From Chloroflexota bacterium (lineage in GTDB: Bacteria > Chloroflexota > Limnocylindria > Limnocylindrales > CSP1-4): 52,197 bases of DNA. The stretch covers positions 18,140 through 70,336 of the forward strand of contig JAUJNA010000002.1 of the NCBI GenBank assembly GCA_030446555.1, given 5' to 3'. The notes under the pieces were generated by a model that worked only from the letters and a program-made list of their open reading frames with translations, ran no database searches and had not been told where the DNA came from. Made by a program: the position numbers and the translations under genes. Positions 18,916-44,249 of the stretch are shown one piece after another. Numbering within the stretch: position 1 is the first letter of the stretch; every line of letters starts with the position of its first letter.

Positions 18916-20105
18916 CCCTCGGCAGCCCCTTCGACGCCCGGACCAGGCCGCTCAATGCCAAGCGCCAGTGGCGCGAATGGGCCGGATCCTTCGCCGCGAG
19001 CGCCTACGCCGCGAGCCACGACATCGAGTACAACGCCATCCGGAACGCGGCGGCGCTCATCGATGTCAGCCCGCTCTTCAAGTACCTCGTCTCGGGGCCG
19101 GACGCCGTCGCGCTGGTCGACCGCGTCATCACCCGCGACGCCGCCAGGATCCGCGTCGGCCAGGTCATCTACACGCCGTGGTGCGACGAGTACGGCAAGG
19201 TCGTCGACGACGGCACGGTGGCGCGACTCGACGAGACGTCGTTCCGCTGGACGGCCGCTGACCCGCAGCTGCGTTGGCTCCGCCTGAACGCTCGCGGGCT
19301 CGATGTCGCGATCGAGGAGATCACGGATAGCACCGCTGCGCTCGCCCTCCAGGGGCCGCTCTCCCGGGCCGTGCTGGAGGCCGCCACGGGCGAGACGTGG
19401 AGCGACCTCCGCTACTACCGCCGCCGCGCCGCGCGGATCGCGGGCATGGACCTCGACGTCAGCCGGACCGGCTACACCGGCGATCTGGGCTACGAGCTGT
19501 GGGTCGATGCCGGGGACGCCACGCGGCTCTGGGACGCGTTGATGGAGGCCGGCGCGGCATTCGCCGTCCGAGCCGCGGGCATGCTGGCGCTCGACGTGGC
19601 GCGCCTGGAGGCGGGCCTCATCCTGCTCGAGGTCGACTACACCAGCGCCCGTCATGCGCTGATCCCCGAGCAGTCATATTCCCCGTACGAGATCGGGCTC
19701 GGCCGGCTCGTGGACCTGGACAAGCCGGCCCGTTTCGTGGGCCGCGCCGCCCTCCGGCGGGAGATCGACGCCGGCGGTGCGCGCCGGAGGCTCGTCGGCC
19801 TGGAGCTCGACTGGGAGGACCTGGACGCCCTGTACGCCGCGCAGGGGCTGAGCCCCGTGCTCTCAGCCGCTGCCTGGCGCGAGCACGTCCCGCTCTACGC
19901 CTCCGGCCGGCAGATCGGCCGTGCCACGAGCGGGACGTGGAGCCCGATCCTGAAGAAGAGCATCGCGCTCGGGTCCGTCGAGGCCGCGTACGAGCCGGTC
20001 GGGTCCCGTCTACGGCTCGAGTGGACCGTGGAGGGCCGACGCGGCCGGGTGGGGGCCAGAGTCGTGCCCCTGCCCTTCTTCGACCCGCCGCGCAAGCGAG
20101 CGTGA
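18912..20105 (+). CDS. aminomethyltransferase (GcvT) family protein
   Basis: AALIDVSPLFKYLVSGPDAVALVDRVITRDAARIRVGQVIYTPWCDEYGKVVDDGTVARL; SRTGYTGDLGYELWVDAGDATRLWDALMEAGA; GcvT folate-binding fold signatures. Confidence 0.85.
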   Translation: MTLGSPFDARTRPLNAKRQWREWAGSFAASAYAASHDIEYNAIRNAAALIDVSPLFKYLVSGPDAVALVDRVITRDAARIRVGQVIYTPWCDEYGKVVDDGTVARLDETSFRWTAADPQLRWLRLNARGLDVAIEEITDSTAALALQGPLSRAVLEAATGETWSDLRYYRRRAARIAGMDLDVSRTGYTGDLGYELWVDAGDATRLWDALMEAGAAFAVRAAGMLALDVARLEAGLILLEVDYTSARHALIPEQSYSPYEIGLGRLVDLDKPARFVGRAALRREIDAGGARRRLVGLELDWEDLDALYAAQGLSPVLSAAAWREHVPLYASGRQIGRATSGTWSPILKKSIALGSVEAAYEPVGSRLRLEWTVEGRRGRVGARVVPLPFFDPPRKRA

Positions 20106-26812: not shown

Positions 26813-27907
26813 CTACTCGTCGTCCTCGTCGTCCGAGGCGGACATGCGAGCCTTGACGTATCCGATGGCCTCCACCGGCGATGGGTCGTCGCCGTACAGG
26901 AACGCCAGGTAGGTGCTCACGTAGTCGCCCATCACGATGGCCGAGACGGCCTGTGCAAGGGCGCTGGACCCCCCGATGGCCACCACCTGGTGAGCGATCT
27001 GCGCCATGCCCAGCAGCTGTGCGGAGAGCGACGCCCGAAGGGCGTTGCGCGCGTGCTGGTCGGGACTCGCCAGGAAGACCACGTAGAGGTGGTCGCGGAT
27101 CGTCTCCGGTCGGCCGTAGCCCACGACGGCGTTGTGGGTCGCCTCGGGGAGTTCCTCGGAGAAGGCCGCCGTCTTGCCGTTCTCGTTGAGCTGCGCCTTC
27201 CAGCGGCGTGCGACCACGGCCAGGGCGCCACTGGCCTCGACGACGGGCAGTCGGTCGACCAGGCTCCACGCCAGCTGCTTGGCCGGGTTGCGCTCGGTGG
27301 GGACATCCGGTCCGAAGTGCTCGACGGCCGAGGATGCGGCCGTCACAGCGTCACCCACCTCGTCGTCGCCCAGCTGGAGCAGCCCGGCCCGCTCGAGCGA
27401 TCCGGCCAGCAGCGTCATCGAGTAGCCCACCGCGGCCCGCGGCTGACCGCCGCCGGGGAACGTCAGGAGTGGCAGGCTGGCGCGCGACGCCACCTCGCGC
27501 ATCGGGCCGCCCGTGGTGATGATGGCCACCGGGCAGCGCCGCTCCAGGGCGGTGCCCAGGGCGCTGATCGTCTCCTCGGTGGCGCCGCTGTAGGAGCTGG
27601 CGATGACGAGCGTCTCGCGGCCCACCCATGCGGGCAGGTCGTAGTCCCGCACGACCACCAGCGGGACGCGCAGCCGATCGGCGAAGATGCCGCGCACCAG
27701 GTCACCGCCGATGGCGGAGCCGCCCATGCCGAGCAGCGCCACGGCCCGCGCTGTCGTGTGGGCCTCGGCGAGCATCAGGCTCCGTGTCCGAGTCCAGCCG
27801 TCGGCGATCTGCGCCGGCAGCGTCGCCACCGCGTCGAGCATCGCCGACGCGTCATAGCGGCGCATCGGACCGGGGTCGTCGAGGATCCCGCCGACGCCCA
27901 CGGCCAC
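26813..27907 (-). CDS. bifunctional phosphoglucose/phosphomannose isomerase-like SIS protein
   Basis: VALLGMGGSAIGGDLVRG, LVIASSYSGATEETISAL, AVVARRWKAQLNENGKTAAFSEELPEATHNAVVGYG: PGI/PMI motifs. Confidence 0.88.
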   Translation of the reverse strand: MAVGVGGILDDPGPMRRYDASAMLDAVATLPAQIADGWTRTRSLMLAEAHTTARAVALLGMGGSAIGGDLVRGIFADRLRVPLVVVRDYDLPAWVGRETLVIASSYSGATEETISALGTALERRCPVAIITTGGPMREVASRASLPLLTFPGGGQPRAAVGYSMTLLAGSLERAGLLQLGDDEVGDAVTAASSAVEHFGPDVPTERNPAKQLAWSLVDRLPVVEASGALAVVARRWKAQLNENGKTAAFSEELPEATHNAVVGYGRPETIRDHLYVVFLASPDQHARNALRASLSAQLLGMAQIAHQVVAIGGSSALAQAVSAIVMGDYVSTYLAFLYGDDPSPVEAIGYVKARMSASDDEDDE

Positions 27908-27908
27908 C

Positions 27909-29393
27909 TCAGGCCTCGCCGTAGACGAGTCGCTGGCCCTCGGCCAGCATCGCATCGCGCCGCCCGGCGCTGGTGGCCTCGGCATAGACGCGCACAAGCG
28001 GCTCCGTGCCGCTGAAGCGGACGAGCAGCCAGGACCCGTCGTCCGTCCACCACTTGAAGCCGTCATTCGTGTCGAGCGCGACCGAGCGCACGACCGCCTG
28101 TCCCGCCAGCGCCGTCGGCGCCTGTTCCCGCAGCGAGACGAGCAGCCGTTCCTTCAGCGAGGGATAGGCGGAGCGGTCCACGTGCACGTCGGTCCGCAGG
28201 TAGAACGAGGCGCCAGCCAGGGAGTGGAGGTGCTCGACGATGGCCGACACCGGCCAGCGCCCGGCCTCCCGCTCCCGCACGAAGAGGTCCAGCAGCAGCA
28301 GGTCGGCGTAGATGCCATCCCGCTCGGGCAGGTGCATGCCAAAGCCGTAACCGCCCGACTCCTCGCCGCCCATCATCGCGCCGGTCTCGATCATCTTGGG
28401 CCCCACGTACTTGAAGCCGACCGGCGTCTCGTGGACCGCGACCCCGTAGCGCTCGCCGAGCCGACCCACCATCTGTGTCTCGTTGATGGTCGAGACGACC
28501 GGCTGGCGCATGCCGCGATGCTCCAGCAGGTAGTACATGAGGAGGCCCATCACCTGGAGCTGGTGGATGAAGGTGCCCTGCTCGTCGGCTGCTCCCGCAC
28601 GATCGGCGTCGCCGTCGAGCAGGAGCCCCAGGTCGTATCCGCCGCCTGCCAGCTGACGGAGCGCGGGGTCGATATTGGGCCGGATGGGCTCGGGGTTGAG
28701 ACCCCCGAACCATGGGTTCCGCTCCTTGTGGATCTCCTCGATGGTGATGCGACCCTGCCGCAGCAGCCGCGGGATCCAGCCCACGCCGGAGCCGAAGAGG
28801 GGGTCGACCAGGACCCGCAGGTCCGCGGCACGCAGTCGATCGAGATCGAGCGTCCGGCGGACGTACTCCTCGTAGCCGACGTAGGGATCGAAGCGCTCGA
28901 CCAGGCCGGCTGCCTCGGCGTCGGCGAGCGGGCGCGTGAGCGGGACGCCACCGGCACGTTCACGGATGGTGGCTTCGAGCGTGGCGAGGATGTCGGGACC
29001 GGCGGCGGCGCCGGTCGGCGACTTGACCTTGAAGCCGTTGTCGGTCCACGGGTTATGCGAGGCGGTGATCATCACGCCACAGGCGGCTCCCCGCTGGACC
29101 ACCTCGTAGGACGTCATCTGGGTGGGGATGGGGCCGCTCGAGAGGACGATGGGGATGTCGTGGGCCAGGAGCACCTCCCCGGCCGCGTCCGCGAAGTACT
29201 CGCTGGCGAAGCGGCGGTCATAGCCCACCACGACGCCCTGCGCCTGCGTCCCCTCGTCGAGCACGTACCGTGCCACGCCCTCGGCGCATCGCCGCACGTT
29301 CTCGTAGGTGAACTCGTCGGCGATCCGCGCGCGCCAGCCGTCCGTCCCGAAGACGATGGGCGGGATCACGGCCTGGGTGGCGGTCTGGGTCAC
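27909..29393 (-). CDS. phosphoglucomutase/phosphomannomutase family protein
   Basis: FGTDGWRARI, GVMITASHNPWTDNGFKVKSPTG, LLLDGDADRAGAADEQG, VGFKYVGPKMIE.GAMMGGEESGGYGF, VRFSGTEPLVRVY. Confidence 0.93.
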   Translation of the reverse strand: MTQTATQAVIPPIVFGTDGWRARIADEFTYENVRRCAEGVARYVLDEGTQAQGVVVGYDRRFASEYFADAAGEVLLAHDIPIVLSSGPIPTQMTSYEVVQRGAACGVMITASHNPWTDNGFKVKSPTGAAAGPDILATLEATIRERAGGVPLTRPLADAEAAGLVERFDPYVGYEEYVRRTLDLDRLRAADLRVLVDPLFGSGVGWIPRLLRQGRITIEEIHKERNPWFGGLNPEPIRPNIDPALRQLAGGGYDLGLLLDGDADRAGAADEQGTFIHQLQVMGLLMYYLLEHRGMRQPVVSTINETQMVGRLGERYGVAVHETPVGFKYVGPKMIETGAMMGGEESGGYGFGMHLPERDGIYADLLLLDLFVREREAGRWPVSAIVEHLHSLAGASFYLRTDVHVDRSAYPSLKERLLVSLREQAPTALAGQAVVRSVALDTNDGFKWWTDDGSWLLVRFSGTEPLVRVYAEATSAGRRDAMLAEGQRLVYGEA

Positions 29394-29479
29394 GGCGGCA
29401 CGGGCTCCTGGGGGAGGGACGGAGGGAGATGGTACCCCGAGGCGGCGCCCCGTCCGGGCCCCGCGCCTATCCTTCCGCC

Positions 29480-30268
29480 GTGGATGCGACATCCCCGGTC
29501 CGCGAGCGCCCCATCTTCATCATCGGCTGCCCGCGCTCCGGGACCACCCTGCTGCGCCTCGTGCTCGACTCGCACCCCAGGATCAGCTGCGGCGAGGAGA
29601 CGCACTTCCTGCGCGAGCTGCGGTCCATCGTGGAGGGCCACTGGCCGCTGCTCGAGACGTACGGCTTGCCTCGCGAGGACTGGCTGCGGCGGATCCGTGG
29701 GCTCTACGAGGGCTTCCAGGCCGACTATCTGGCCCGACGCGGCAAGCAGCGCTGGGCGGAGAAGGACCCCACCTACACGCTCCTGCTGCCCTTCATCGAC
29801 GAGCTCTTCCCGCACGCCCAGTACGTGCATCTGGTCCGTGACCCGTACGACGTGGTGGCCTCGTTCCGCGAGCGGTGGGGCTATCGCGCGGCCTTGCGGG
29901 TGGCGCGGACGGAGTGGGTGCGCTACGTGGGCGCGGGGCGCCGGTTCGGGCAAGCGCTTCCCGCCGGCCGCTATCACGAGCTCCACTACGAGCAGCTCGT
30001 AGAGGCTCCGGAACGGACCCTCCGCACCCTGCTCCGCTTCCTGGACGAGCCCTGGGACGACGCCGTGCTGCGCTTCGACGAGGCGGAGCACGATGCCACC
30101 GAGCGCTACGCCCGCTTCACGGCTGGCCGGCGGGAGACGGCCGGCGAGTCGACCGCGATCTACCGGTCGCGGGTCGGGGCTGGCCGGCGCGACTCGGACC
30201 CCCTCCTGCGCGCCCTGCTGCGCGTCCGTGCCAGGCCACTGCTGCGCGAGCTGGGCTACCCGACGTGA
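29480..30268 (+). CDS. sulfotransferase family protein (ST1)
   Basis: 5'-PSB PIFIIGCPRSGTTLLRLVLDSHP; 3'-PB YVHLVRDPYDVVASFRERW; FHYEQL-like ELHYEQLVEAPERTLRTLLRFL. Confidence 0.88.
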   Translation: MDATSPVRERPIFIIGCPRSGTTLLRLVLDSHPRISCGEETHFLRELRSIVEGHWPLLETYGLPREDWLRRIRGLYEGFQADYLARRGKQRWAEKDPTYTLLLPFIDELFPHAQYVHLVRDPYDVVASFRERWGYRAALRVARTEWVRYVGAGRRFGQALPAGRYHELHYEQLVEAPERTLRTLLRFLDEPWDDAVLRFDEAEHDATERYARFTAGRRETAGESTAIYRSRVGAGRRDSDPLLRALLRVRARPLLRELGYPT

Positions 30269-31326
30269 CGGTGGGCTACCTCCACGTCGGCAAGGAGGGT
30301 GGCGGCGTCCGGCGCTACGGGCGCATCATCGCGGAGGCAGCCCGAGCCCGGGATGAGCTGGATGCGCGGGAAGCGGACGCGGGCGAGCGCGACGCATCCC
30401 GTCACCGGCTGAAGGAGGCAGGACGCCAGCTCTCGGGGTGCGCGGTCGTGCACCTGCAATGGAAGCCGGCCGACTGGGGCGGCGGCCTCCGGGCCTTCGG
30501 CCGGCTGCGCGCGTTCGCGCGAGGCTGCTCGCGGCCCATGGTCGTGACGCTCCACGACGTCTGGGCTCGCGGCGGGATGCGCGAACGGTGGCTGGACAGC
30601 GACGTGCTGGCGCTTCGCTGGCTGGGCCGGTCCGCGGCGCGGCTCGTGGTGCACTCGGACGAGGAGCGCCGGCGCCTCGAGGGATTCGTGCCGGCGGAGA
30701 AGGTGGCACTGGTGCCGCACTTCGTGGAGGAGCGCGTCATGGCCGACGCCCATGCCTCACGGACGGCCCTGGGCCTGGCCGGGAAGCGCGTGATGACGCT
30801 CCTGGGTTTCATGGTCAGACGCAAGGGCTACCGGCTGACGATCGAGGCGCTGCCGCTCCTCCCTGACGATGTCGTCGCGCTCTTCGCCGGTGGCCCCATC
30901 CCGGGGCGCGAGGCCCGCGCCGATGAGCTTCGCGCCCATGCCGAGTCGCTCGGCGTGGGAGATCGCGTGGTGATCACGGGATACGTCGCCGATGAACGGC
31001 TCGACCAGACCCTCGCGGCGACGCACGTGGCCATCTGTCCCTTCCGTGACCTGTCGGCGTCGGGGTCGCTCTCGACCTGGATCTCCACGGGCCACCCCAT
31101 CGTGACCTCCGACCTGCCGCAGTTCCGCGAGTACGACGCGCTGGTGCCGGGCGCGTTGCGCATCTTCCGTCCGCTCACGGCCCGGGCCATGGCCGACGCG
31201 GTGCGCTCCGTGCTCGATGCGGGCCCGCCGCCGGTGGACCCCAAGGTCATCGCGCTCCGCGAGCGGCTCCTGACGCCACGCGCCGTGGAGGCCTACGCCG
31301 AGGTCTACCGAGCGGTGGCGCGTTGA
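30265..31326 (+). CDS. glycosyltransferase (GT4-like)
   Basis: VTVGYLHVGKEGGGVRRYG; VVTLHDVW; VALVPHF; LLGFMVRRKGYRLTIEALPLLPDDVVALFAGG; VVITGYVADERLDQTLAATHVAICPFRDLSASGSLSTWISTGHPIV; GTGA overlap with ST1. Confidence 0.85.
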   Translation: MTVGYLHVGKEGGGVRRYGRIIAEAARARDELDAREADAGERDASRHRLKEAGRQLSGCAVVHLQWKPADWGGGLRAFGRLRAFARGCSRPMVVTLHDVWARGGMRERWLDSDVLALRWLGRSAARLVVHSDEERRRLEGFVPAEKVALVPHFVEERVMADAHASRTALGLAGKRVMTLLGFMVRRKGYRLTIEALPLLPDDVVALFAGGPIPGREARADELRAHAESLGVGDRVVITGYVADERLDQTLAATHVAICPFRDLSASGSLSTWISTGHPIVTSDLPQFREYDALVPGALRIFRPLTARAMADAVRSVLDAGPPPVDPKVIALRERLLTPRAVEAYAEVYRAVAR

Positions 31327-31341
31327 TAGCCCAGGAGGGCT

Positions 31342-32412
31342 TCAGAGCAGGTCATCGCGTCCCTCGGACCTGAGCCGGTCGACCACGAGCTTGACGTCCT
31401 GTGCTCGGTCGCCGGACAGGACGAGCAGCGCATCGGGCGTGTCGACGACGACGACGTCCTGGAGACCCACGGTCACCACGAGGCGATCGCCAGCAGCATG
31501 GACGAGCGATCGGGCGGAACCGATGTCGATGGTCGCCGAGCCCGACCGTGACAGGGTCACGGGACCGCCACCCGTGCCTTCGCGCTGCGCGTCCATGAGC
31601 GCCGCCCAGGAGCCCACGTCGCTCCATCCGACGTCGATGGGAACGACCGCCACGCCACCTTCGGTGGACGCGGGCTCCAGCAGCGCGTAGTCGACCGAGA
31701 TCGAGCGGAGCGCGGGATACGCCTGGTCCAGACCGCCCGAGTCGAGCGCCTCACGCACGCCCCCGATGATTTCGGCGGCATGCCGCTCCAGGCCGTCGAT
31801 GGCCGCATCGCGCCGCCAGACGAAGATGCCGGCGTTCCAGAACGCGCGACCACCGGCCAGCAAGCCGGCTGCGCGTTCGCGAGAGGGCTTCTCCACGAAC
31901 CGCTCGACGGGCAAAGCGGCCGACGGACCTCCCGTGTCTGCGACGCCTGCCGCCAGGACATACCCGTAGCCGGTCTCGGGACCGGTCGGTCGGATGCCCA
32001 GGGTCACCAGCGCGCCAGCCGCGGCCCGCTCTGCGGCCGCTGCCAGCGCGTCGCGGAAGCCGGACGCGTCGGTGATCGCGTGGTCGGCCGGGAGGATGGC
32101 CATGATCTCGTCGTCCGGCCGGTCGATGGCCAGCGCGGCCAGCGCCACCGCCGCCGCCGTGTTCCGGCTCACCGGCTCCTCCACCAGGTTCCCCTCGGGG
32201 ACCTCCGGCAGCTGCTCGCGAAGGAGGTCGCGATAGCGGCCGTCCGCGACGACGAAGACGTCGCGGGGCGCGATGAGCGGCTGGAGCCGCGCCACGGTCG
32301 CCTGGAGCAGCGTCGTATCACCGGCCAGTGCCAGGAACGGCTTGGGACGTGCGGCCCGGCTGAGCGGCCATAGGCGTGTGCCGCCGCCGCCGGCAAGGAT
32401 CACCGCGTACAT
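31342..32412 (-). CDS. manC: mannose-1-phosphate guanylyltransferase
   Basis: MYAVILAGGGGTRLWPLSRAARPKPFLAL; NTAAAVALAAL; ILPADHAI; FVEKPSRERA; WNAGIFVWR; WSDVGSWAAL. Confidence 0.93.
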   Translation of the reverse strand: MYAVILAGGGGTRLWPLSRAARPKPFLALAGDTTLLQATVARLQPLIAPRDVFVVADGRYRDLLREQLPEVPEGNLVEEPVSRNTAAAVALAALAIDRPDDEIMAILPADHAITDASGFRDALAAAAERAAAGALVTLGIRPTGPETGYGYVLAAGVADTGGPSAALPVERFVEKPSRERAAGLLAGGRAFWNAGIFVWRRDAAIDGLERHAAEIIGGVREALDSGGLDQAYPALRSISVDYALLEPASTEGGVAVVPIDVGWSDVGSWAALMDAQREGTGGGPVTLSRSGSATIDIGSARSLVHAAGDRLVVTVGLQDVVVVDTPDALLVLSGDRAQDVKLVVDRLRSEGRDDLL

Positions 32413-32462
32413 GGCGGGATCGTACAGGGCGCCCGTCCGATACCATCACGCCGCCCGTGAGC

Positions 32463-33440
32463 ATGACCGACGAAGGACGCAAGCCGGCCTGGCCCTCCGG
32501 CGTCGGCGGCCTCGACCCTCGCCCGACACCCATCCGTCTGACGAACCTGTGGCGCTGGGCGCAGCTCACGTGGCGTGCCGAGAAGCGCTACTACCGACGG
32601 CTGGGGCGGCCGGTGCGCCTGCGGTCGGGACGGCTGGCGCGCTCGATCCTGCCGAGCCTGGAGCGGCCCGTCTTCCTCATCGGTGCTGCTCGGTCGGGCA
32701 CCACGTTCCTCGGTGACTGCATCGGGCGCGTGCCCGAGATCAGCTATCACCACGAGCCACCGGCTACCAAGGCGGCCGGAAGGTACGTGCACCACGGCCT
32801 GTGGGGGTCCCGGCGCAGCCGGTGGTTCTACCGCATGGTCTACGCGTGGCTGCTGCGCGTGGAGCTGGACGGCGGGTTGCGCTTCTGCGACAAGACGCCC
32901 ACCAACTCGTTGCTCATCCCGTTCCTGGACCGGGCTTTCCGGGACAGCCAGTTCATCCACATCGTGCGCGACGGACGCGACGCATCGGTCTCACTGGGGA
33001 GCAAACCGTGGCTGCTCGCCGCCTCGAAGGGCTCCACCGTGCGAGAGCCGGGCGGGTACCTGCACGGCCCTTACGCGCCCTGGTGGGTGGAGAAGGAGCG
33101 CCGGGAGGACTTCGAGGGCACGAGCGACATCCACCGCATGATCTGGGCCTGGCGGCGTTACGTGGAGGCCGCCCTCCGCGACGGTCCCCCGCTGGGCGGT
33201 GGACGCTACCTGGAGATCCGCTACGAGGATCTGGTGGCCGAGCCGCGGGCGAACGGCGAACGGATGCTCGACTTCCTGGGCATCGAGCGGCCGCAGTCGA
33301 GACAGACCCTCCTCCATGCGCTCGATCGTGCGGACCAGGGTTCGGTCGGCGCCTGGCGGCGCGAGCTCAGCGTGCGCGACCTGGAAGTCATCGAGGCCGA
33401 GGCGGGTGACCTCCTGCGGCGCCTGGGATACGCCGGCTGA
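32463..33440 (+). CDS. sulfotransferase family protein (ST2)
   Basis: PVFLIGAARSGTTFLGDCIGRVPEI; FCDKTPTNSLLIPFLDRAFRDSQFIHIVRDGRDASVSL; YLEIRYEDLVAEPRANGERMLDFLG. Start could be GTG at 32457. Confidence 0.88.
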   Translation: MTDEGRKPAWPSGVGGLDPRPTPIRLTNLWRWAQLTWRAEKRYYRRLGRPVRLRSGRLARSILPSLERPVFLIGAARSGTTFLGDCIGRVPEISYHHEPPATKAAGRYVHHGLWGSRRSRWFYRMVYAWLLRVELDGGLRFCDKTPTNSLLIPFLDRAFRDSQFIHIVRDGRDASVSLGSKPWLLAASKGSTVREPGGYLHGPYAPWWVEKERREDFEGTSDIHRMIWAWRRYVEAALRDGPPLGGGRYLEIRYEDLVAEPRANGERMLDFLGIERPQSRQTLLHALDRADQGSVGAWRRELSVRDLEVIEAEAGDLLRRLGYAG

Positions 33441-33447
33441 CGATGGG

Positions 33448-34680
33448 CTAGGCAGGGACCGCGGCAGCCTCGCTCGACGGTCGTCCCAGGCCGGCAGCCG
33501 CGGCCAGCGCCTCCGCCATGTCGGTCCGCTCCCACGGCAGGTCGAGCTCCGGGCGGCCGAAGTGGCCGTACGAGGCCGTCTGCTGGTAGATCGGCCGCCG
33601 CAGGTCGAGTGCCGCGATCATGGCCGAGGGCCGCAGGTCGAAATGTTCGTGGATGAGCTGGAGGATGCGTCGGTCGTCGACCCTTCCCGTGTTGAAGGTC
33701 TCGATGGAGACCTGCAGCGGGTGCGCCACGCCGATGGCGTAGGCCAGCTCGATCTCGAAGCGATCGGCCAGGCCAGCCGCCACCACGTTCTTCGCCACCC
33801 AGCGTGCAGCGTAGGCTGCGGAACGGTCCACCTTGGAGGGATCCTTGCCGCTGAACGCGCCCCCGCCGTGCCGTGCCATGCCCCCGTACGTGTCGACGAT
33901 GATCTTGCGACCGGTGAGTCCCGCATCACCCATCGGCCCACCGATGACGAAGCGGCCGGTCGGATTCACATGGACCGTGGGATCCACCGCCCGGAGATGG
34001 GCCGGGATGACGGGCTTGATGACCGACTCGTAGATGTCGTCCCGGAGGCGCTCGGTAGCGACCTCTTCGTCGTGCTGGGCGGAGACGACCACGGTGCGCA
34101 CGGCCTTGGGCACGCCATGGGCGTACTCCACCGTGACCTGCGTCTTCCCGTCGGGGCGCAGGTAGGGCAGCGTCTCGTCCTTGCGCACCTCAGCCAGCCG
34201 CTGGGCCATGCGATGCGCGAGCGCGATGGGCAGGGGCATCAGCTCGGGCGTCTCGCGGCAGGCGAAGCCGAACATCATGCCCTGGTCGCCTGCGCCCTGG
34301 TCGTGCTGATCGGTGTGCCCCCGGGTCTCGAGCGCGTCGTCCACCCCGCGCTTGATGTCCGGCGACTGCTCATGGATCGACACGATGGTGCCGCAGGTGC
34401 GGTAGTCGAACCCGTACCGGGCGTCGGTGTAGCCGATACGCCGGACGGTGTCGCGCACCACGGCCTGGAAGTCCACGTAGGTCGAGGTCGTGATCTCGCC
34501 GAGGACCATCACCGTGCCCGTCGTGGTGGCCGTCTCACACGCCACCCGTGCTGGCGCGTCCTCCCGGAGGATCGCATCCAGGATGGCGTCCGAGACCTGG
34601 TCGCACAGCTTGTCCGGGTGACCCTCGGTCACCGACTCGGAGGTGAAGAGGTACTGCTCGGCGTCTACGATGCTGGTCAT
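33448..34680 (-). CDS. metK: S-adenosylmethionine synthetase
   Basis: [97 protein letters not shown]. Confidence 0.97.
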
Positions 34681-35573
34681 CGATCCCCTCGTGAGCGGGA
34701 CTCCGCCAGTGGCGCCTTCGGGCCGCTGGCTGGTTCCGTGAAGTTCGGCCACAGCGACAGGTCCAGGCCTGGCGCGAACGCTCGCAGGATACGGACGTCG
34801 GGCGCATACAGCTCGACCAGTCTCCGCCGCTCGTCATCGGTCAGCGGCTCCTTCGTGACCGTGACCGCCGACCGCTGCGCAAGAAGCTCGTCCGAAGGCT
34901 GCCACGGCGAGAGTCCCAGGAACTCCAACGTCCTCGCGAACTCGCCCCTGGGATCGCGGGCGCATCGTTCGTACTGCAGGACAAGGATGCGATCGCGTCC
35001 CACCGAGTCCGCCAGCTGGGTCAGCTGGCTGCCATAGAACCCGCGCCGCAGCGCCACCGCCCGTGCCTTCCGCTCCTCCAGGTCCCGGTCGCCGATCGAG
35101 CCGGTGTGGTGCTTCCGCCACTGAGGGACCCCGGAGCGATAACGCTCCACCGGATCTCGCACGGTGGCCAGCAGCTTCGCCTCCGGCGCAGCCACCCGGA
35201 TGGCACGTCCCACCCACGAGCAGGCCATGTAGCTAGGCGTCCACTCACCGATCTGCTTTCCGGGAGGCCTCGGGAACCAGCGCGCGTATGCCTCGGCATC
35301 ATCCCGGGTGGGCTTGCGGAAGGCGATGAGGGTGCGCAGCTCCTTTTCCTGCTGTGCCTGGACCTCGGGATGCGCGTCCAGCAGCGAGAACCACCACGTG
35401 GTGCCGCACTTCTGACTGCCCACGCCGATGAAGTCAGGCGGTCCGGTCCGCCAGCCGGGAGGGCAGGGCGGCGGCTCGGAAGGTCTTGACGGACGCCATG
35501 ATGGGCGCTCCCGCTGGGAGCGACGGGGCCCGAGCATCGCTCGACGGGTGCTACGAAGGAATCTCAGAGCCAT
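34677..35573 (-). CDS. sulfotransferase family protein (ST3)
   Basis: [69 protein letters not shown] overlap with metK. Confidence 0.87.
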
Positions 35574-35727
35574 CGCACCGGATGATAGGGCCCGCCCCCC
35601 AGGACGCGCTCCGCGGGATCCGGTGTCGCAAGCCCATCGTCGCTCCGGAGACCACACGGCCGTCGACGACACGCTGCCCGCATCCCCGACCGGCCCTGAC
35701 GCTAGACTCGCTCCGGGTCCGTGAGCC

Positions 35728-36474
35728 GTGCAACGTACCCATGGAGGGCTTGAGCTGGCAACGCTGTGCCGCCCCCGCAAGCTGCTGTTCATCCACGGGC
35801 GCCGAACCGGCTCGACCGCCGTGCGGGACGTGCTGCACGAGCGGTTCGGCGGCGAGGAGGTGCCCCCGGAGCGCATCATGGACGAGCGAGGCCACGCAGC
35901 CGCGGCGCGCCACTCCAACCTGCCCACGCTCATGCGCGAGGGCCTCATCACGCCTGAGCAGAGGCGCGAGCTCGTCGTCTTCACCGCCGTGCGAAACCCG
36001 TTCGACGACCTCGTCTCGACCTACATCAAGAACCGGCAGGTCTACGAGGGCTCGCTGTCCCGTCCATCCCAGATCATGGGCGAGATGCGGGTCGAACAGC
36101 TGCGCTACTGCGCCACGCACAGCTTCGACGAGTGGATCGCCTGGCGCTACACGCCACCCGGTCTGCTGGGGCGGTTCAAGCGACCGCCGCCCGCCCGCTT
36201 CGCGCACACCGAAGGGGCTGACGTGGTCATGCGCTTCGAGTGCCTCCAGGAGGACTTCGATGCGCTCCTGCGACGCATCGGGTATGAGGGCGCGATCGAG
36301 CTGCCCCGTGTCAACATCACCACCGAGCGGACCCATTACCGCGAGTACTACACGCCCCGGGCGCGGCGCATCGTCGAGCGCGCCTGGGCCGGCGAGCTCG
36401 AGCGATACGGGTACGCGTTCGATGACGGTGTGGTGGCCGATGAAGGGGTGACCCAGGAAGCGGTGATGCCGTGA
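35728..36474 (+). CDS. sulfotransferase-like protein (ST4)
   Basis: KLLFIHGRRTGSTAVRDVLHERFG P-loop-like 5'-PSB; VVFTAVRNPFDDLVSTYIKNR 3'-PB; MRFECLQEDFDALLRRIG. Confidence 0.75.
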   Translation: MQRTHGGLELATLCRPRKLLFIHGRRTGSTAVRDVLHERFGGEEVPPERIMDERGHAAAARHSNLPTLMREGLITPEQRRELVVFTAVRNPFDDLVSTYIKNRQVYEGSLSRPSQIMGEMRVEQLRYCATHSFDEWIAWRYTPPGLLGRFKRPPPARFAHTEGADVVMRFECLQEDFDALLRRIGYEGAIELPRVNITTERTHYREYYTPRARRIVERAWAGELERYGYAFDDGVVADEGVTQEAVMP

Positions 36475-37718
36475 CCGCCGACGTGGCCGAGAGCGTCCGG
36501 GGCCGTGACCTGCTCGCCTACCGCGATGAGTTCCCGCTGCTCTCGAACGCCACCTACCTGAACACGTGCTCGCTCGGAGCGCTACCGCGGCGCGGACGAG
36601 CCAAGCTGCACGAGTTCCTGGACCAGTGGGAGAGGCTGGGCGCGAGTGCCTGGTATGGCCACTGGATGGCTGAGCTGGGGGCGCTCCGAGAGGACTTCGG
36701 CTGGGTCATCGGCCGTCCCGGCTCGGAGATCGCGCTGGCGCCCAACGTATCGGTCGCTCTCGCCTCCTTCGCCTCCGCGCTCGACCCGCTCCACCGGGGC
36801 GACGAAGCGACGACTCGCGCGCTTGGTGAGGCCCTCGACTGGCGGCCGTCGCGTGGCGCTCCGTCGCGCACGCGCGTGGTCACCACGGCGCTCGACTTCC
36901 CGACGCTCGGTCACCAGTGGCTGGCGCGGTCGCCGCTCGGCGTGGAGCTCGTGGTCATCCCATCGCCCGACGGGCTGACGGTCCCCCTCGATTCGTTCGC
37001 CTCGGCCATCGACGAGCGGACAGCGCTGGTCGCCACGGGGCACGTCTACTTCACGACCGGAGCCGTGCAGGACCTGCCGGGCCTGGCGCGCCTCTGCCAC
37101 GAACGGGGAGCGCTGCTGCTCGCCGACGCGTACCAGGCGACCGGGCTCATCCCTACCAACGCCGCGGCGCTGGGCGTGGACGCGTATGTGTCAGGCTCCC
37201 TCAAGTGGCTCTTCGGCGGCCCGGGGACCGCCTTCCTGTGGCTGCGGCCAGCGGTCCGCCAAGCGCTCGTGCCCACGACCACCGGCTGGTTCTCGGGCTC
37301 TCGCCAGTTCGAGTTCGATGTCGCGTCCCTCGAGTTCGCGGACGATGGCCGCAAGTTCGAGATGGGCACACCGGCGGTGCCGTCCGCCTTCCTGGCACGT
37401 GGCGGCATGTCGCTGGTGCGCGAGATCGGGGTGGAGGCGATGCACGCCCGGACCGTGGAGCTGGGCGCATCGGCCATCCGCCTCGCGGACGCGGCAGGAC
37501 TGGAGGTGCGCGCGGTGCGCGATGACGCGCAGCGCGCGGGGATGCTGGGCATCCGCTCCGCCACCCCGCGCGCCGTCGTTGCCGAACTCGCGGCCCAGGG
37601 GATCATCGTCGATGCGCGGCCCGACATCGTCCGACTCTCCCCGGCGTTCTACAACACCGAGAGCGAGGTGGCCGACGCCGTGGAGGCGATCGCTCGAGTC
37701 GCCCGAGCCGGTCCATGA
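36471..37718 (+). CDS. class V aminotransferase (kynureninase/cysteine desulfurase-like)
   Basis: YLNTCSLGALPRRGRAKLHEFL; VATGHVYFTTGAVQDLPGLARLCHERGALLLADAYQATGLIPTNAAALGVDAYVSGSLKWLFGGPGTAFLWL (PLP Lys in SGSLKWL); GTGA overlap with ST4. Confidence 0.85.
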   Translation: MTADVAESVRGRDLLAYRDEFPLLSNATYLNTCSLGALPRRGRAKLHEFLDQWERLGASAWYGHWMAELGALREDFGWVIGRPGSEIALAPNVSVALASFASALDPLHRGDEATTRALGEALDWRPSRGAPSRTRVVTTALDFPTLGHQWLARSPLGVELVVIPSPDGLTVPLDSFASAIDERTALVATGHVYFTTGAVQDLPGLARLCHERGALLLADAYQATGLIPTNAAALGVDAYVSGSLKWLFGGPGTAFLWLRPAVRQALVPTTTGWFSGSRQFEFDVASLEFADDGRKFEMGTPAVPSAFLARGGMSLVREIGVEAMHARTVELGASAIRLADAAGLEVRAVRDDAQRAGMLGIRSATPRAVVAELAAQGIIVDARPDIVRLSPAFYNTESEVADAVEAIARVARAGP

Positions 37719-38998
37719 GCATGGGCGGACCGCCCATCTTCGTGGTGGGACATGGTCGATCGGGAACGACGCTCCTCGCCTCCATCCTGAACGCGCATCC
37801 CGACCTGGCCTGTGGGCCCGAGACCGCCTTCTTCGACCTCTTGGGCCGGCAGCGCCGGCGATGGCTGCTGGCGGGACCGACCTGGCCGGATCGGGCGGTC
37901 GACTTCCTCGTCTCGATGGAACGCCAGCACGGCGGCTCGGTCCTCACCTCGTACGGGCTGGATGCCGCTGTCGTGCGCCGGGAGCTCGCAGACCGTCCGC
38001 CGTCGATCGCGGCGCTGCTGGAAGCGATCACCGTGCCCTACGCTCGAGCACGTGGGAAGGGACGCTGGGTGGAGAAGACGCCACGCCACCTGCTGCGGGC
38101 GCGCCAGATCCGACGGCTCTGGCCCGATGCGGTGATCGTCCGCATCGTGCGCGATCCGCGAGGCGTCACGGCGTCGCTCATGGCGGTGCCCTTCGGACCC
38201 TCCTCGGTCGTGGCAGCCGCCTACCAGTGGCGCATCACCGACCAGGGCACCTGGCGCTTCTTCCAGGAAGACGCGCGCTCCATCACCCTCCACTACGAGG
38301 ACCTGGTGCGCGAGCCGGAACGAGAGCTGCGTCGCCTGTGCGCCTCCATCGGCGAGCCATTCGACACCCGCATGCTGGACCCGGCCGCAGCAGGAGCCCG
38401 GGAGATCGCGCGGGACGCCCCATGGCAGGCACGCGTGACGGCGCCCATCGACGCCACACGGATCGAGGCATGGCGCAACGAGCTGTCCGCGACGGACGCG
38501 ACGCGCGTGGCGGTCATCTGCGCCGAGGGCATGCGCCGCTACGGTTACGAGGGTGCCCGCGAGGCGTGTGCCGTGGCCGTGGTGCACCCGCTGGACGCGC
38601 CGGCCCTCCAGGACGCCGGCGCCTTCCTGGAAGAGCTCGCCGATGCGGGAGTGTCGGTCGAGGCCGTCGATCTCCGATGGCGTCGCGCGGCGCGCTCCAC
38701 GATCCTGTGGGGCGCTCCCGGCCAGCTCCGCTGGTCGCGGGGAGGCAGGTCCGCCTCGACGAGTACCTTGCTGCGTGCGGCACGGGCCATGCTGACCGCA
38801 CGGCTCAGGCGCGCGCCGGTCCTCTGGGTCCCGCGGCGCACGGCGCGACGGCGCGCCCGTTCGGCCTTCGATCGAGCCGGTGACCTGGTGGCTCGGCTGC
38901 TGGCAAGGCGCGTCTCACCAGAGGAGGCACTGGTGACCGTCTTGCCCCCACAGGTCAGCGACTCGCGTCAGGTCCCCGCCTGCCAGGACGTCACGTAG
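37715..38998 (+). CDS. sulfotransferase family protein (ST5) with extended C-terminus
   Basis: PIFVVGHGRSGTTLLASILNAHPDL; RWVEKTPRHLLRARQIRRLWPDAVIVRIVRDPRGVTASLMA; ITLHYEDLVREPERELRRLCASIGE; ATGA overlap with class V aminotransferase. Confidence 0.85.
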   Translation: MSMGGPPIFVVGHGRSGTTLLASILNAHPDLACGPETAFFDLLGRQRRRWLLAGPTWPDRAVDFLVSMERQHGGSVLTSYGLDAAVVRRELADRPPSIAALLEAITVPYARARGKGRWVEKTPRHLLRARQIRRLWPDAVIVRIVRDPRGVTASLMAVPFGPSSVVAAAYQWRITDQGTWRFFQEDARSITLHYEDLVREPERELRRLCASIGEPFDTRMLDPAAAGAREIARDAPWQARVTAPIDATRIEAWRNELSATDATRVAVICAEGMRRYGYEGAREACAVAVVHPLDAPALQDAGAFLEELADAGVSVEAVDLRWRRAARSTILWGAPGQLRWSRGGRSASTSTLLRAARAMLTARLRRAPVLWVPRRTARRRARSAFDRAGDLVARLLARRVSPEEALVTVLPPQVSDSRQVPACQDVT

Positions 38999-40302
38999 CG
39001 AGCCTGCTCTTCGGTCATCGCGTCGATGCGGATGCCCAGCGCCTCCAGCTTGAGCCGCGCGACCTCCCGATCGATGACCTCCGGCACGGCATGGACCCGG
39101 GGCTCGAGCTCCGCGTGGTGCTGTGCCACGTACTCCGCCGACAGCGCCTGGTTGGCGAAGCTCATGTCCATGACCGCCGCCGGGTGGCCCTCTGCCGTGG
39201 CCAGATTGACCAGGCGTCCCTGGGCCACGACGTGCAGTCGCCGGCCCTGGACCACGTACTCCTCGACGTCGCGCCGCACTTCCCGGCACTCGCCACGCGA
39301 CAGCTCGCGGAGCGCCCCGAGGTCCAGCTCGTCGTCGAAGTGGCCGCTGTTGGCCATGATGGCCCCATCGCGCATCTTCTCGAAGTGCTCGCGGCGGAAG
39401 ACGTTGAGGTTGCCGGTGGCCGTGATGAACAGGTCACCCCATTCGGCCGCCTGCAGGCCGGTCATGACCAGGAAACCGTCCATCAACGCCTCGATCGCGG
39501 CGATGGGCTCCACTTCCGTGATCGCGACGTGAGCTCCCATGCCGCGCATGCGCGAGGCGATGCCTCGCCCCACCCAGCCGTACCCGGCGATCACCACGCG
39601 GCGTCCGGCGAGGAGGATATTCGTCGCCCGCAGGATCCCATCGACGGTGGACTGGCCGGTCCCGTACCGGTTATCGAAGAGGTGCTTGGTCTTGGCTTCG
39701 TTGACCGCCACGACGGGAAAGCCCAAGGCGGAGTCGAAGGCCATCGCCTTGAGTCGGATGACACCGGTCGTCGTCTCTTCCGTGCCGGCGAGGACTTCGT
39801 CGACCTGCCCCGGCCGCTCCCGGTGGAGGAGCGAGACGAGGTCGCACCCGTCGTCCATGGTCAGTCGGGGATGGGTGTCAGCCACCGCGTTGAGATGGTC
39901 GTAATAGGTGTCGCGGTCCTCCCCTCGCCGCGCGTAGGTGCTGATGCCGTACTCCGCCACGAGGGCCGCCGCCACGTCATCCTTCGTGGAGAGCGGGTTG
40001 GAGGCGCACAGCGCGATCGAGGCTCCGCCTTCTTTCAGGGTCCGCATGAGATTGGCCGTCTCGGTGGTGACGTGGAGGCACGCGCCGATGCGAAGGCCCT
40101 CGAGCGGGCGCTCGCGCTGGAAGCGCTCGCGGATCAGCCGAAGCACCGGCATCTCCCGCTCCGCCCATTCGATGCGACGGACCCCTTCCGATACGAGCGC
40201 CAGGTCGGTGACATCGTGCGGCGGGAGCGATGCGGTCTGGCCGGACGCGGCGTCACCGGAGATGGGCGGCATGGGGTCGGCGGCGATCGATGGACCGGTC
40301 AC
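38968..40302 (-). CDS. ahcY: adenosylhomocysteinase
   Basis: GLRIGACLHVTTETANLMRTLKEGGASIALCASNPLSTKDDVAAAL; NEAKTKHLFDNRYGTGQSTVDGILRATNILLAGRRVVIAGYGWVGRGIASRMRGMGAHVAITEVEPIAA; ATGNLNVF. Confidence 0.96.
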   Translation of the reverse strand: MTGPSIAADPMPPISGDAASGQTASLPPHDVTDLALVSEGVRRIEWAEREMPVLRLIRERFQRERPLEGLRIGACLHVTTETANLMRTLKEGGASIALCASNPLSTKDDVAAALVAEYGISTYARRGEDRDTYYDHLNAVADTHPRLTMDDGCDLVSLLHRERPGQVDEVLAGTEETTTGVIRLKAMAFDSALGFPVVAVNEAKTKHLFDNRYGTGQSTVDGILRATNILLAGRRVVIAGYGWVGRGIASRMRGMGAHVAITEVEPIAAIEALMDGFLVMTGLQAAEWGDLFITATGNLNVFRREHFEKMRDGAIMANSGHFDDELDLGALRELSRGECREVRRDVEEYVVQGRRLHVVAQGRLVNLATAEGHPAAVMDMSFANQALSAEYVAQHHAELEPRVHAVPEVIDREVARLKLEALGIRIDAMTEEQARYVTSWQAGT

Positions 40303-41168
40303 TCAGGTCTCCTCTGTGCCGGCAACAAGCGCCGGAACGGCGTGACGATGCTATCCCACAGGGCTCTCCGGCGGTGCACGACGCGCTCCTCGAAGCGGGT
40401 GTACTCGCGGTACCCGATGGCGGCATAGGCGGCCAGGGCGGGCGGATTGTCCGACCGTACGTTGAGCACGACTTGGTCGCAGGTGCGCAGGAGCTCGGCC
40501 GTGACGGCGGCGGTGGTGAGCTTCGCGTAGCCCTGACCGCGATGCTCCCGATGGGTCAGCACGTTCCCGACCACCGCCAGGCGCGCCTCCCGGCTGACGA
40601 CGTGCGTGCCGGCGGCGGCCACCAGGCGGCCGTTGACGCGAACGCCGTAGTAGACGCCGTGCACGAGCACCTCGGCCGGTAGCCAGGCGGCCAGCCCCAG
40701 GTCGTAGAGTCGGTTCAGGTCGCCGATCTCCGGCGGCAGGAGCCGGGAGACCGGCCCGGGCAGGGGCACGAACGTCGATGCGTCGACCACCATGCGCACC
40801 ATCTCCGGTCCCGGCTCCACCCGGTAGTGAGCGGCCAAGGCATGGAGGGTGTCCCGTCGCGCCGACACGTAGCCCACTCGCGTGCGGATGACCCCTTCGA
40901 GGATGGCTTCGATGCCGTCGATGGCGCCCATCGCGAAGACCGGTTGGGGTGACTGCCCGGAGTACTCCATCACGAGCGCGACGAGCGACCCCTGCTGCAT
41001 CGCGATGCCCCAGCGCGTCCGCTGGAACTCCCGCTCGTCGAGGTCGCAGATGGCGTACGCGGCGAAGAGCCGATCCCGCTCGAGGAACTCGCGCAGCATC
41101 TCGCGATCGCGTGTCGCTCGCACCTCCAGGGTGCGATCCCGAGCCGCCGTGCGTGCGATGGCGGCCAT
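40299..41168 (-). CDS. GNAT family N-acetyltransferase
   Basis: AAGTHVVSREARLAVVGNVLTHREHRGQGYAKLTTAAVTAELL...NVRSDNPPALAAYAAIGYREYTRFEERVV: RGxGxA acetyl-CoA motif and NPPALAAYxAIGY. Confidence 0.85.
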   Translation of the reverse strand: MAAIARTAARDRTLEVRATRDREMLREFLERDRLFAAYAICDLDEREFQRTRWGIAMQQGSLVALVMEYSGQSPQPVFAMGAIDGIEAILEGVIRTRVGYVSARRDTLHALAAHYRVEPGPEMVRMVVDASTFVPLPGPVSRLLPPEIGDLNRLYDLGLAAWLPAEVLVHGVYYGVRVNGRLVAAAGTHVVSREARLAVVGNVLTHREHRGQGYAKLTTAAVTAELLRTCDQVVLNVRSDNPPALAAYAAIGYREYTRFEERVVHRRRALWDSIVTPFRRLLPAQRRPE

Positions 41169-41187
41169 CAGCTGCGCACCCTGAGGC

Positions 41188-42603
41188 TCACGAGCCGCCC
41201 GTCCCATGGACCACCGCGGCGGCCGGCGCCCGCCGGGCCTGCCGAGCGGCAAGGGCGGCGCGCAGGGCCGGCGAGAAGGGCGCTGCGAGCACTCCCTCCT
41301 CGGTCACGATGACGGTCAGCCACTGCGCCTCCGCGATATCGGTGATTGGCGCCCGGATGTCCGAGGGGCCTGGCTGGCGCGGCGCGCCGCCCGCACCGTC
41401 GCGCTCGGGAGGCGGACGAAGCTCCTCCGGGAGCCCGGCTGCGTCAGCGGTGTCGGGGTCGAAGGTCGTGAGCGGCGCGCAGAGGAGCACCGGGACCGGT
41501 GGCTCGACCAGGGTGCTCGCGAGTGCCGCGATGCCGCCGCCGCCGGCGATGACCGCCGCGTCGCCGCTGGCCGTGAGCCACTCGGCGCCGAGCAGGACCG
41601 CGTCCGGGGCATGCCGCTGGAGCAGCCACGACACCGCCGTATCAGGCACGACGGTGTGGCCGATACCGGCTTGGCGCAGCTCCCACGCGGTGATGCGGGC
41701 ACCTTCCAGGTCGGGAGCGGTCTCGGTGACCCATACGTGCACCGGCCGATCCTGGGCGGCCAGCAGCTGGACGATGGCGAGCCCGGTGCCCACGAGACCG
41801 CCGCCCATGGCTCCCGTCTCGCCGTGGACCAGCAGCTCCAGCGGCCGGTCATCCGGCCGTGGCAGTGCCGCGGCGCCGTGCCGCGCGAGGGCCGCGTGGT
41901 CCATGGTCGCCTCGTCGGCCATCGCGTCGGCCTCCGCGCGGAGGGCATCGGACAGGACCTCCGGATCCACATCAGCTGCCAGCGTGGCCCGGCGGGCGAT
42001 CATCCGGTCCAGCGCATGGCGCACCGGGCGGGCCGTCGGCCGCGTCCGGCGCAGCTGCTCCTCGATCGAGCCGAGTTCCATCTCCAGCGCACCAGGATGC
42101 CGCTGTCGGTGCCGGCGCGCGGTCAGGGCGATCGCGTAGGCGGCGAGTTGTCCCAGGAGCGGCGCCCCGCGCGCCGCGCCGGAGGCCATCGCCCGCGCCA
42201 GGTCACGACCGTCCCGGCAGGTGAGCTCTACGATCGCCCCCGGCAGCTCGCGCTGATCGACGAGGATCAGGCCATCGTCCACGAGGCGGTACGGGCTTCG
42301 GTATACGGCCGACTCGCCGGGGATGCGGCTGGTGGCGCGCCACGGCCCCGACGACCCGCGTGAGCCTCCTCCGGACCGTCCCGATCCTCCCGGGCGCCCA
42401 TCGCCCTGGCTCTCCGCTCCGGGGTCGGGGTCGAGGAGGGAGCCGGCCGCGGTCGCGGTCCCCCGGCGCAGCACCTCGGCCGCTCCCACCACCTGCCCCG
42501 CGGCCTCGACCGCGCTCCTGCCGAACGTCCGGAAGAAGCGCCGGCGACCCAGGTCCACCTCGTCGGCCGGCGACCGCCCGGGGGGCGGACGCTCCCGACT
42601 CAT
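41188..42603 (-). CDS. MtnA / eIF-2B-like family protein with degenerate active site
   Basis: ARGAPLLGQLAAYAIAL, LLVHGETGAMGGGLVGTGLAIVQLL, ETAPDLEGARITAWELRQAGIGHTVVPDTA, AVLLGAEWLTASGDAAVIAGGGGIAALA, LLCAPLTTFDPDTAD align with MtnA motifs; catalytic Cys and Asp replaced. Confidence 0.75.
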   Translation of the reverse strand: MSRERPPPGRSPADEVDLGRRRFFRTFGRSAVEAAGQVVGAAEVLRRGTATAAGSLLDPDPGAESQGDGRPGGSGRSGGGSRGSSGPWRATSRIPGESAVYRSPYRLVDDGLILVDQRELPGAIVELTCRDGRDLARAMASGAARGAPLLGQLAAYAIALTARRHRQRHPGALEMELGSIEEQLRRTRPTARPVRHALDRMIARRATLAADVDPEVLSDALRAEADAMADEATMDHAALARHGAAALPRPDDRPLELLVHGETGAMGGGLVGTGLAIVQLLAAQDRPVHVWVTETAPDLEGARITAWELRQAGIGHTVVPDTAVSWLLQRHAPDAVLLGAEWLTASGDAAVIAGGGGIAALASTLVEPPVPVLLCAPLTTFDPDTADAAGLPEELRPPPERDGAGGAPRQPGPSDIRAPITDIAEAQWLTVIVTEEGVLAAPFSPALRAALAARQARRAPAAAVVHGTGGS

Positions 42604-43223: not shown

Positions 43224-44249
43224 CTAGCGCACGCTCCCGGCCGCCCCGACCACCCCGCGGTCACGCATCGGCCGGCCGGAAGCACCATGTCGCATGGCCA
43301 CCATCTCGGCCAGGATCGCCAGCGCCGTCTCCGCCGGCTCGCGGCCGCCCAGATCCAGACCGATCGGCCCGCGCAGCCGCTGCAGCTCTGCCTCAGGTAC
43401 GCCGGCCGCGAGGAGCCGCTCGCGGCGACCGGCCTGCGCACGGGCGCTCCCGATGGCTCCCACGTACCGGCACCCTCGCGCGAGGGCGACGGTGATGGCC
43501 GGCTCGTCGAACTTGGGATCGTGCGTCAGGACCGCCACTGCATCGGCGGGGCCCAAACCCATCATCTCCGCCGCCTCGTCGGGCCAGCCGAGGATGATCC
43601 GGTCCGCATCGGGGAACCGCTCGCGCGTGGCGAAGCGTGCCCGCCCGTCCGCCACGATCGTCTCGTAGCCCACGGCCCGCGCCATGCTGACGAGCGGCCG
43701 CGCCACCTCTACGCCGCCGATGATCAGCAGGCGTGACCGCCGCGGGAAGACCTCGATGAAGAACGCCCGGCCCTCGACCTCCACGGTCCGCGACCGTCCG
43801 GTGGCCATCACAGCCGCCACGACCTCACTGGGGGGGCCGCCTGGCGTCGTCTCATCCGCCCCGGCGCCGGAGGCATCCGCCGGCAGCGGCGTCACGACGA
43901 CGCGTCCGCGCTCCTGTGCGGCCTGGACGATCTCCGCGCGGACGGCCGGCTCGACCAGGACGTCGATCGTTCCACCGCAGGCCAGTCCCACGTCCCAGGC
44001 CCGCTCGTCGCTGATGCCGTAGCGCATCACGCAGGAGCGGCCAGAGCGCCGTGCGCGGCCGACCTCCTCCACGACTGCGCCTTCCACGCACCCAGCGCTG
44101 ACCGAGCCCGCGATGCGCCCATCCGACGCCGCCAGGAGTACGGCCCCCTCGGGTCGTGGCGCCGAGCCGATCGTGCGCACCACGACCGCTCGCCCGGCAT
44201 CGACGCCCTCCGCCCGCCACCGCTCCAGGTCCGGCAGCAGCTCGATCAC
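43224..44249 (-). CDS. XdhC/CoxI family protein
   Basis: SAPRPEGAVLLAASDGRIAGSVSAGCVEGAVVEE; LLIIGGVEVARPLVSMARAVGYETIVADGRARFATRERFPDADRIILGWPDEA; YVGAIGSARAQAGRRERL; GTGA overlap with mfd. Confidence 0.87.
   Translation of the reverse strand: MIELLPDLERWRAEGVDAGRAVVVRTIGSAPRPEGAVLLAASDGRIAGSVSAGCVEGAVVEEVGRARRSGRSCVMRYGISDERAWDVGLACGGTIDVLVEPAVRAEIVQAAQERGRVVVTPLPADASGAGADETTPGGPPSEVVAAVMATGRSRTVEVEGRAFFIEVFPRRSRLLIIGGVEVARPLVSMARAVGYETIVADGRARFATRERFPDADRIILGWPDEAAEMMGLGPADAVAVLTHDPKFDEPAITVALARGCRYVGAIGSARAQAGRRERLLAAGVPEAELQRLRGPIGLDLGGREPAETALAILAEMVAMRHGASGRPMRDRGVVGAAGSVR

Follow-up and report, generated by a model that had tools for sequence, protein, structure and literature searches.

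Does the interleaving of sulfotransferase genes with genes for GDP-mannose synthesis, on a contig from an uncultured Chloroflexota bacterium, reflect a system dedicated to the sulfation of a mannose glycan, as a reading of the letters alone had suggested (hereafter, the sequence-only reading)? Animals, algae, cyanobacteria and some marine bacteria are the best-known sources of sulfated polymers. We analysed a window of 52,197 nt, the whole stretch of DNA under study (GCA_030446555.1, contig JAUJNA010000002.1, positions 18,140 to 70,336; contig C21 of the genome designated G000, which amounts to 2.09 Mb and is 78% complete), and all coordinates below are relative to it. We prefer, with somewhat better than even confidence, the explanation that PAPS-dependent sulfotransferases form an island at genus level, interspersed with older household genes in a block (PGI/PMI, PMM, ManC, MetK and AhcY), and decorate a surface glycan.

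A sulfotransferase island and its genes

As the sequence-only reading had it, genes for PGI/PMI, PMM/PGM, ManC, a glycosyltransferase (GT) and five sulfotransferases (ST1 to ST5) occur within approximately 12 kb (Table 1); metK, an aminotransferase class V gene (PLP) and the abutting ahcY were missing from that account. The best NCBIfam models for the mutase are of the GlmM type and score below their cut-off, and ManC reaches 291 bits against a cut-off of 373. ST1, GT and ST2 lie on the strand opposite to that of the mannose genes. Overlaps of a few bases join three groups of genes: the stop codon of ST1 overlaps the start of GT (GTGA), that of ST3, for which we propose ATG 35573 as the start codon, overlaps the start of metK (ATGA), and the PLP gene overlaps both ST4 and ST5. 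Profile scans with Pfam and NCBIfam recognised no polymerase and no exporter among the island genes.

Table 1. Genes of the sulfotransferase island and its household block (window coordinates).
Feature	Position	Strand	Profile matches or basis
Bifunctional phosphoglucose/phosphomannose isomerase (PGI/PMI), backbone	26813-27907	-	PF10432, 143.8 bits; NF006426, 317 > 295
Phosphomannomutase/phosphoglucomutase-type enzyme (PMM/PGM), backbone	27909-29393	-	PF02878-PF02880, PF00408
ST1, Sulfotransfer_3, TPST/NoeE-like	29429-30268	+	PF13469, 134 bits
GT, family-4-type (GT4) glycosyltransferase	30265-31326	+	PF13692, PF00534, PF13439
ManC-type mannose-1-phosphate guanylyltransferase, backbone	31342-32412	-	PF00483, 150 bits; PF22640, 53 bits
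ST2, Sulfotransfer_3	32463-33440	+	PF13469, 79 bits
metK, S-adenosylmethionine synthetase, backbone	33448-34680	-	PF02773, PF02772, PF00438
ST3, heparan-sulfate-3-O-sulfotransferase-like	34677-35573	-	PF13469, 59-60.7 bits; PF00685, 44.9 bits
ST4, Sulfotransfer_2	35728-36474	+	PF03567, 36.5 bits
Aminotransferase class V (PLP) protein	36471-37718	+	PF00266, 109 bits
ST5, Sulfotransfer_3 with C-terminal extension	37715-38998	+	PF13469, 114 bits
ahcY-type gene, adenosylhomocysteinase, backbone, right border	38968-40272	-	Sequence-based call from the ORF list

All five sulfotransferases exceeded a Pfam gathering score (27 for PF13469, 22 for PF03567), the weakest being ST4 with 36.5 bits against 22, which assigns them to sulfotransferase families and not to unrelated P-loop families. 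Six homologues of ST4 also matched PF03567 (20.6-43.9 bits), three of them just below the cut-off. The motifs previously pointed out in each protein, 5'-PSB (CPRSGTT, AARSGTT, SQKCGTT, GRRTGST and GHGRSGTT) and 3'-PB, were all ten found in order and at the expected positions, at residues 34 and 136 in the case of ST1. Profiles, motifs and the PAPS genes described below place ST1 to ST5 in the PAPS-dependent sulfotransferase superfamily, and they are predicted to transfer sulfate. Their mutual divergence was likewise borne out, with pairwise identities ranging from 36% over the domain down to no detectable match. ST3 resembles heparan sulfate 3-O-sulfotransferases, matching PDB 3rnl and HS 3-O-ST entries. 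ST4, present in 7 of 107 genomes of the family, gave nothing useful in a PDB search, and its structure predicted without an alignment had a pLDDT of 33.

When 16 genes were placed at random in the genome, none of 20,000 simulations brought five of them within 9.6 kb. The codon composition of the island is native: GC and GC3 match those of the neighbouring genes, the lowest GC3 being that of ST3 (0.80), and a recent foreign origin is not supported by composition.

The household block with and without sulfotransferases

Comparison with relatives showed a household block with the order SWIM-PGI/PMI-PMM-ManC-MetK-AhcY-GNAT-Apt. Ten relatives (G005, G006, G008, G009, G011, G014, G016, G017, G019 and G023) carry it free of sulfotransferases, although some of these blocks miss a gene or stop at a contig end; ManC-MetK occurs in the ten, mostly with PMM and AhcY. 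PGI/PMI is found in the block of relatives both with and without sulfotransferases, and the position of ahcY is conserved. Because the block is recognisable without sulfotransferases in these ten genomes, the island is an addition to older household genes, and the block predates it. In G016, a homologue of the PLP gene product (64% identity) adjoins metK in the sulfotransferase-free block.

The conserved synteny that the sequence-only reading had asked for does exist. ST1 lies between PMM and ManC, and ST2 just past ManC, in our genome and in G001, G003, G004, G021 and ACE_CHL4, the contig of G001 stopping before MetK and the locus of G004 being in pieces; ST1, GT and ManC in loci L048 and L049 were located by tblastn. 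GT follows ST1 in every ST1-ManC-ST2 genome except ACE_CHL4, and its place next to ST1 is conserved in loci L045, L046, L047 and L049. The ST2 orthologues at this site show 57-83% identity, and among 400 Chloroflexota genomes only three matches to ST2 were found, all in genomes of the same family as ours. Named relatives bearing ST1 are Chloroflexi MAGs, including palsa_1032, MGR_bin7, MGR_bin214, DEBay and ACE_CHL4, and these names suggest that the lineage belongs to the class Limnocylindria. Across two genera, ST1, GT and ST2 have gone into fixed sites on the strand opposite to that of the mannose genes. Towards the right border, copies or pieces of ST4, PLP and ST5 adjoin AhcY or GNAT in G001, G002 and G004, with ST5 orthologues beside PLP and/or AhcY/GNAT in the last two and beside MetK in ACE_CHL4. 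G004 additionally contains three ST4-family sulfotransferases within 3 kb (L184, 6151-9069).

Beyond Chloroflexota, Cf. Phormidesmis sp. LEGE 11477 encodes homologues of ST1 (44%) and ST2 (about 49-50%), approximately 2.4 kb apart and within about 4 kb (L052, 6583-10771), with an FG-GAP/UnbV_ASPIC protein gene between them and a GT4 gene beside them; the 20-kb locus contained no match to ManC, PMM or PGI. This single genome, the one case that we have of the pairing in Cyanobacteria, supports the idea that ST1 and ST2 act together, independently of adjacent mannose genes. A Nocardioides MAG contains three sulfotransferase-like genes in a row (L050, 4902-7632), one of them 50% identical to ST1, and this run lies near glycan-type genes. 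Homologues of ST1 with 33-34% identity were also seen in Thermoplasmatota archaea (L053-L056), in one of which (L053) a second sulfotransferase-like ORF adjoins the homologue. The open-access literature contained no mention of Limnocylindria together with a sulfotransferase, and in the portions of it that mention Chloroflexota and sulfotransferases none evidently concerned such a system.

These comparisons bear directly on the functional tie to mannose activation, in which ST1 to ST5 would act on a mannose-containing glycan fed by GDP-mannose from the interleaved genes. The adjacency is conserved in two genera, GDP-mannose should be available, a GDP-mannose 4,6-dehydratase gene lies near other sulfotransferase genes of the genome (on C2), and a sulfated exopolysaccharide containing mannose and rhamnose is known, the synechan made by the xss cluster on plasmid pSYSM of Synechocystis PCC 6803 (PMC8205485). 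However, ManC is present in 37 of the 41 relatives, among them those without sulfotransferases, the ten sulfotransferase-free blocks retain ManC-MetK, ST1, GT and ST2 run opposite to the mannose genes, and the Phormidesmis pair has none of these genes nearby. As a specific association, the link was rejected on the near-universality of ManC and on the ten sulfotransferase-free blocks, and we consider the dedicated system unlikely. Adjacency aside, nothing points to mannose as the acceptor; sugar-activation genes that adjoin the island are not evidence for its acceptor, a trap that this comparison corrects.

PAPS supply and the wider sulfotransferase set

The genome contains the genes for PAPS supply and PAP removal whose presence had been proposed as a check. 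CysD (437 > 397) and CysN (588 > 336, both NCBIfam) are adjacent on contig C12, CysC (157 > 139, TIGR00455) lies on C16 in a gene interrupted by a run of N, and a HAL2-type 3'(2'),5'-bisphosphate nucleotidase (329 > 267) lies on C6; the last was called with NCBIfam, as PF00459 alone did not discriminate genomes. Only one protein of the genome matches the PAPS_reduct family (PF01507), and that protein is CysD. Single PF01507 matches were likewise obtained in G002, G003, G004, G021 and G016, and scans with this profile found no separate CysH in these six incomplete genomes; G014 was the only genome in which we identified a protein of the CysH type. Since CysD is the only PAPS_reduct match, PAPS appears to serve sulfation and not sulfate reduction, with the caveat that the genomes are incomplete.

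PF13469 has 15 entries in the genome, some of them genes split into two pieces, and with ST4 there are about 15-16 sulfotransferase genes, on loci at C2, C7, C11, C16, C18 and C21. Among 107 genomes of the family, PF13469 occurs in 17, a strong APS kinase match in 24 and both in 15 (15/2/9/81; p = 1.9e-10, Fisher's test, uncorrected for shared ancestry). CysC is close to sulfotransferase genes not only in our genome (C16) but also in five relatives (G003:C112, G021:C52, G016:C83, G012:C199 and G014:C27). The C16 locus also has genes for an ABC-2 transporter, glycosyltransferases, a WecB-type epimerase, a nucleotide sugar dehydrogenase and a paralogue of ST5 (39%), making it a candidate polysaccharide assembly and export locus (L077, 5139-16920) and the likelier locus for a sulfated polymer. 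On C2, a UDP-sulfoquinovose-synthase-like gene (377 bits, under the cut-off of 575) and the dehydratase gene mentioned above have two sulfotransferase genes in their vicinity (L082, 2460-10583), and a third sulfotransferase gene lies near position 20000.

Candidate acceptors and known systems

A second alternative casts ST1, and perhaps also ST2 and ST5, as tyrosine sulfotransferases of a bacterial kind that act on secreted peptides or proteins. The best solved relatives of ST1 are TPST1 and TPST2 (E = 8e-23 for TPST1), which act on protein tyrosine. In Foldseek, the 13 best PDB matches to the predicted fold of ST1 (pLDDT 86) were all tyrosylprotein sulfotransferases (TM about 0.6-0.7), and residues R36, E57 and K112, invariant in 17 homologues, align onto TPST residues, so that sequence and model suggest a TPST-type fold and set of catalytic-type residues. 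The TPST2 counterparts are, we assume, R78, E99 and K158, with the catalytic roles presumably as in that enzyme. Identity in the structure alignments is nevertheless only 23-29%, and ST1 sits in a glycosyltransferase context, its gene overlapping that of GT. Moreover, we noticed no small secreted peptide gene between the island genes, the Nocardioides and Phormidesmis homologues occur in polysaccharide-like contexts, and few carbohydrate enzymes of the ST1 family from bacteria have PDB entries, which biases the nearest-structure evidence. There is bacterial precedent in RaxST of Xanthomonas, which carries out this modification in vitro (PMC4216712). The closeness of ST1 to TPST in sequence and predicted fold keeps a peptide acceptor as a live rival, albeit a distinctly improbable one.

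Sulfation of small molecules or lipids, such as sulfolipids, in place of a polymer would agree with the additional matches of ST1 to polyketide-linked sulfotransferase domains (4gbm and 4gox) and with the UDP-sulfoquinovose-synthase-like gene on C2. The island, however, has no polyketide or lipid-assembly gene, and both the ST1-GT overlap and the polysaccharide-type genes at the CysC locus argue against this possibility, which we regard as very improbable.

We return to the surface glycan, which is also our best guess for the island locus. In its favour are the overlap of ST1 with GT, the glycan-type surroundings of the Nocardioides homologue, the position of CysC beside export and sugar genes, and the named bacterial homologues (the NoeE model and a synechan-cluster sulfotransferase), whose family name or gene context marks them as glycan enzymes; the tyrosine-modifying relatives of ST1 are the counterpoint. 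CysDN and CysC would produce PAPS, the sulfotransferases would pass its sulfate to hydroxyl groups, and the HAL2-type phosphatase would remove PAP. ST1 with its overlapping GT, together with ST2, would most likely act in the cytoplasm and sulfate an intermediate of a surface glycan, and the ST4-PLP-ST5 string and ST3 would contribute further sulfation. Assembly and export would most likely take place elsewhere, for example through the CysC locus, where an ABC-2 transporter and glycosyltransferases are encoded together with sugar genes of the UDP-ManNAc type. We infer in this way the glycan acceptor, the joint action of the sulfotransferases and the export route. A more specific proposal, which we rate slightly below an even chance, is that PAPS is used only for sulfation and that the 15-16 or so dispersed sulfotransferases make a multiply sulfated surface polymer via a module, ST1-GT-ST2, of which at least one cyanobacterium shares the sulfotransferase pair. 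If correct, a Chloroflexota lineage that combines many sulfotransferases and full PAPS machinery, and in which no PAPS reductase was found, would extend the known range of sulfated polymers and offer new enzymes for making sulfated glycans.

Of the NCBIfam models, ST1, ST2 and ST5 matched only that of the NoeE Nod-factor sulfotransferase (NF052394), but their scores of 60, 26 and 60 bits are far under the cut-off of 500, indicating that they are not NoeE members. The synechan cluster resembles the island in combining two diverged sulfotransferases with glycosyltransferases; ST1, ST2 and ST5 are homologous (22-28% identity) to the one at pSYSM 43343-44293, which is probably XssE, judging by gene order, and ST3 is distantly homologous to the one at 40411-41316. 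With such identities, and with 60 bits against 500 for NoeE, the acceptor is not readable from the sulfotransferase sequence. Synechan is made by a single cluster with Wzx/Wzy, whereas the island lacks a recognised exporter or polymerase and the sulfotransferases of the genome are spread over several loci; the island does not unite sulfotransferase, glycosyltransferases and export or polymerase genes at one locus, as bacterial sulfated-polysaccharide clusters do. In PMC11641403, a polysaccharide cluster with PAPS genes and sulfotransferases is taken as the hallmark of sulfated polysaccharide, and the sulfated capsule cluster of Vibrio sp. KMM 8419 contains cysDNC, several sulfotransferases and ABC export (PMC11641403). 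The C16 locus is similar in having CysC, a sulfotransferase and ABC export, but cysDNC lies inside the Vibrio capsule cluster, whereas here CysDN (C12) and CysC (C16) are apart and the island has neither. Set against these systems, the island is real and conserved and probably serves surface-glycan sulfation, which would add a new lineage to a known chemistry.
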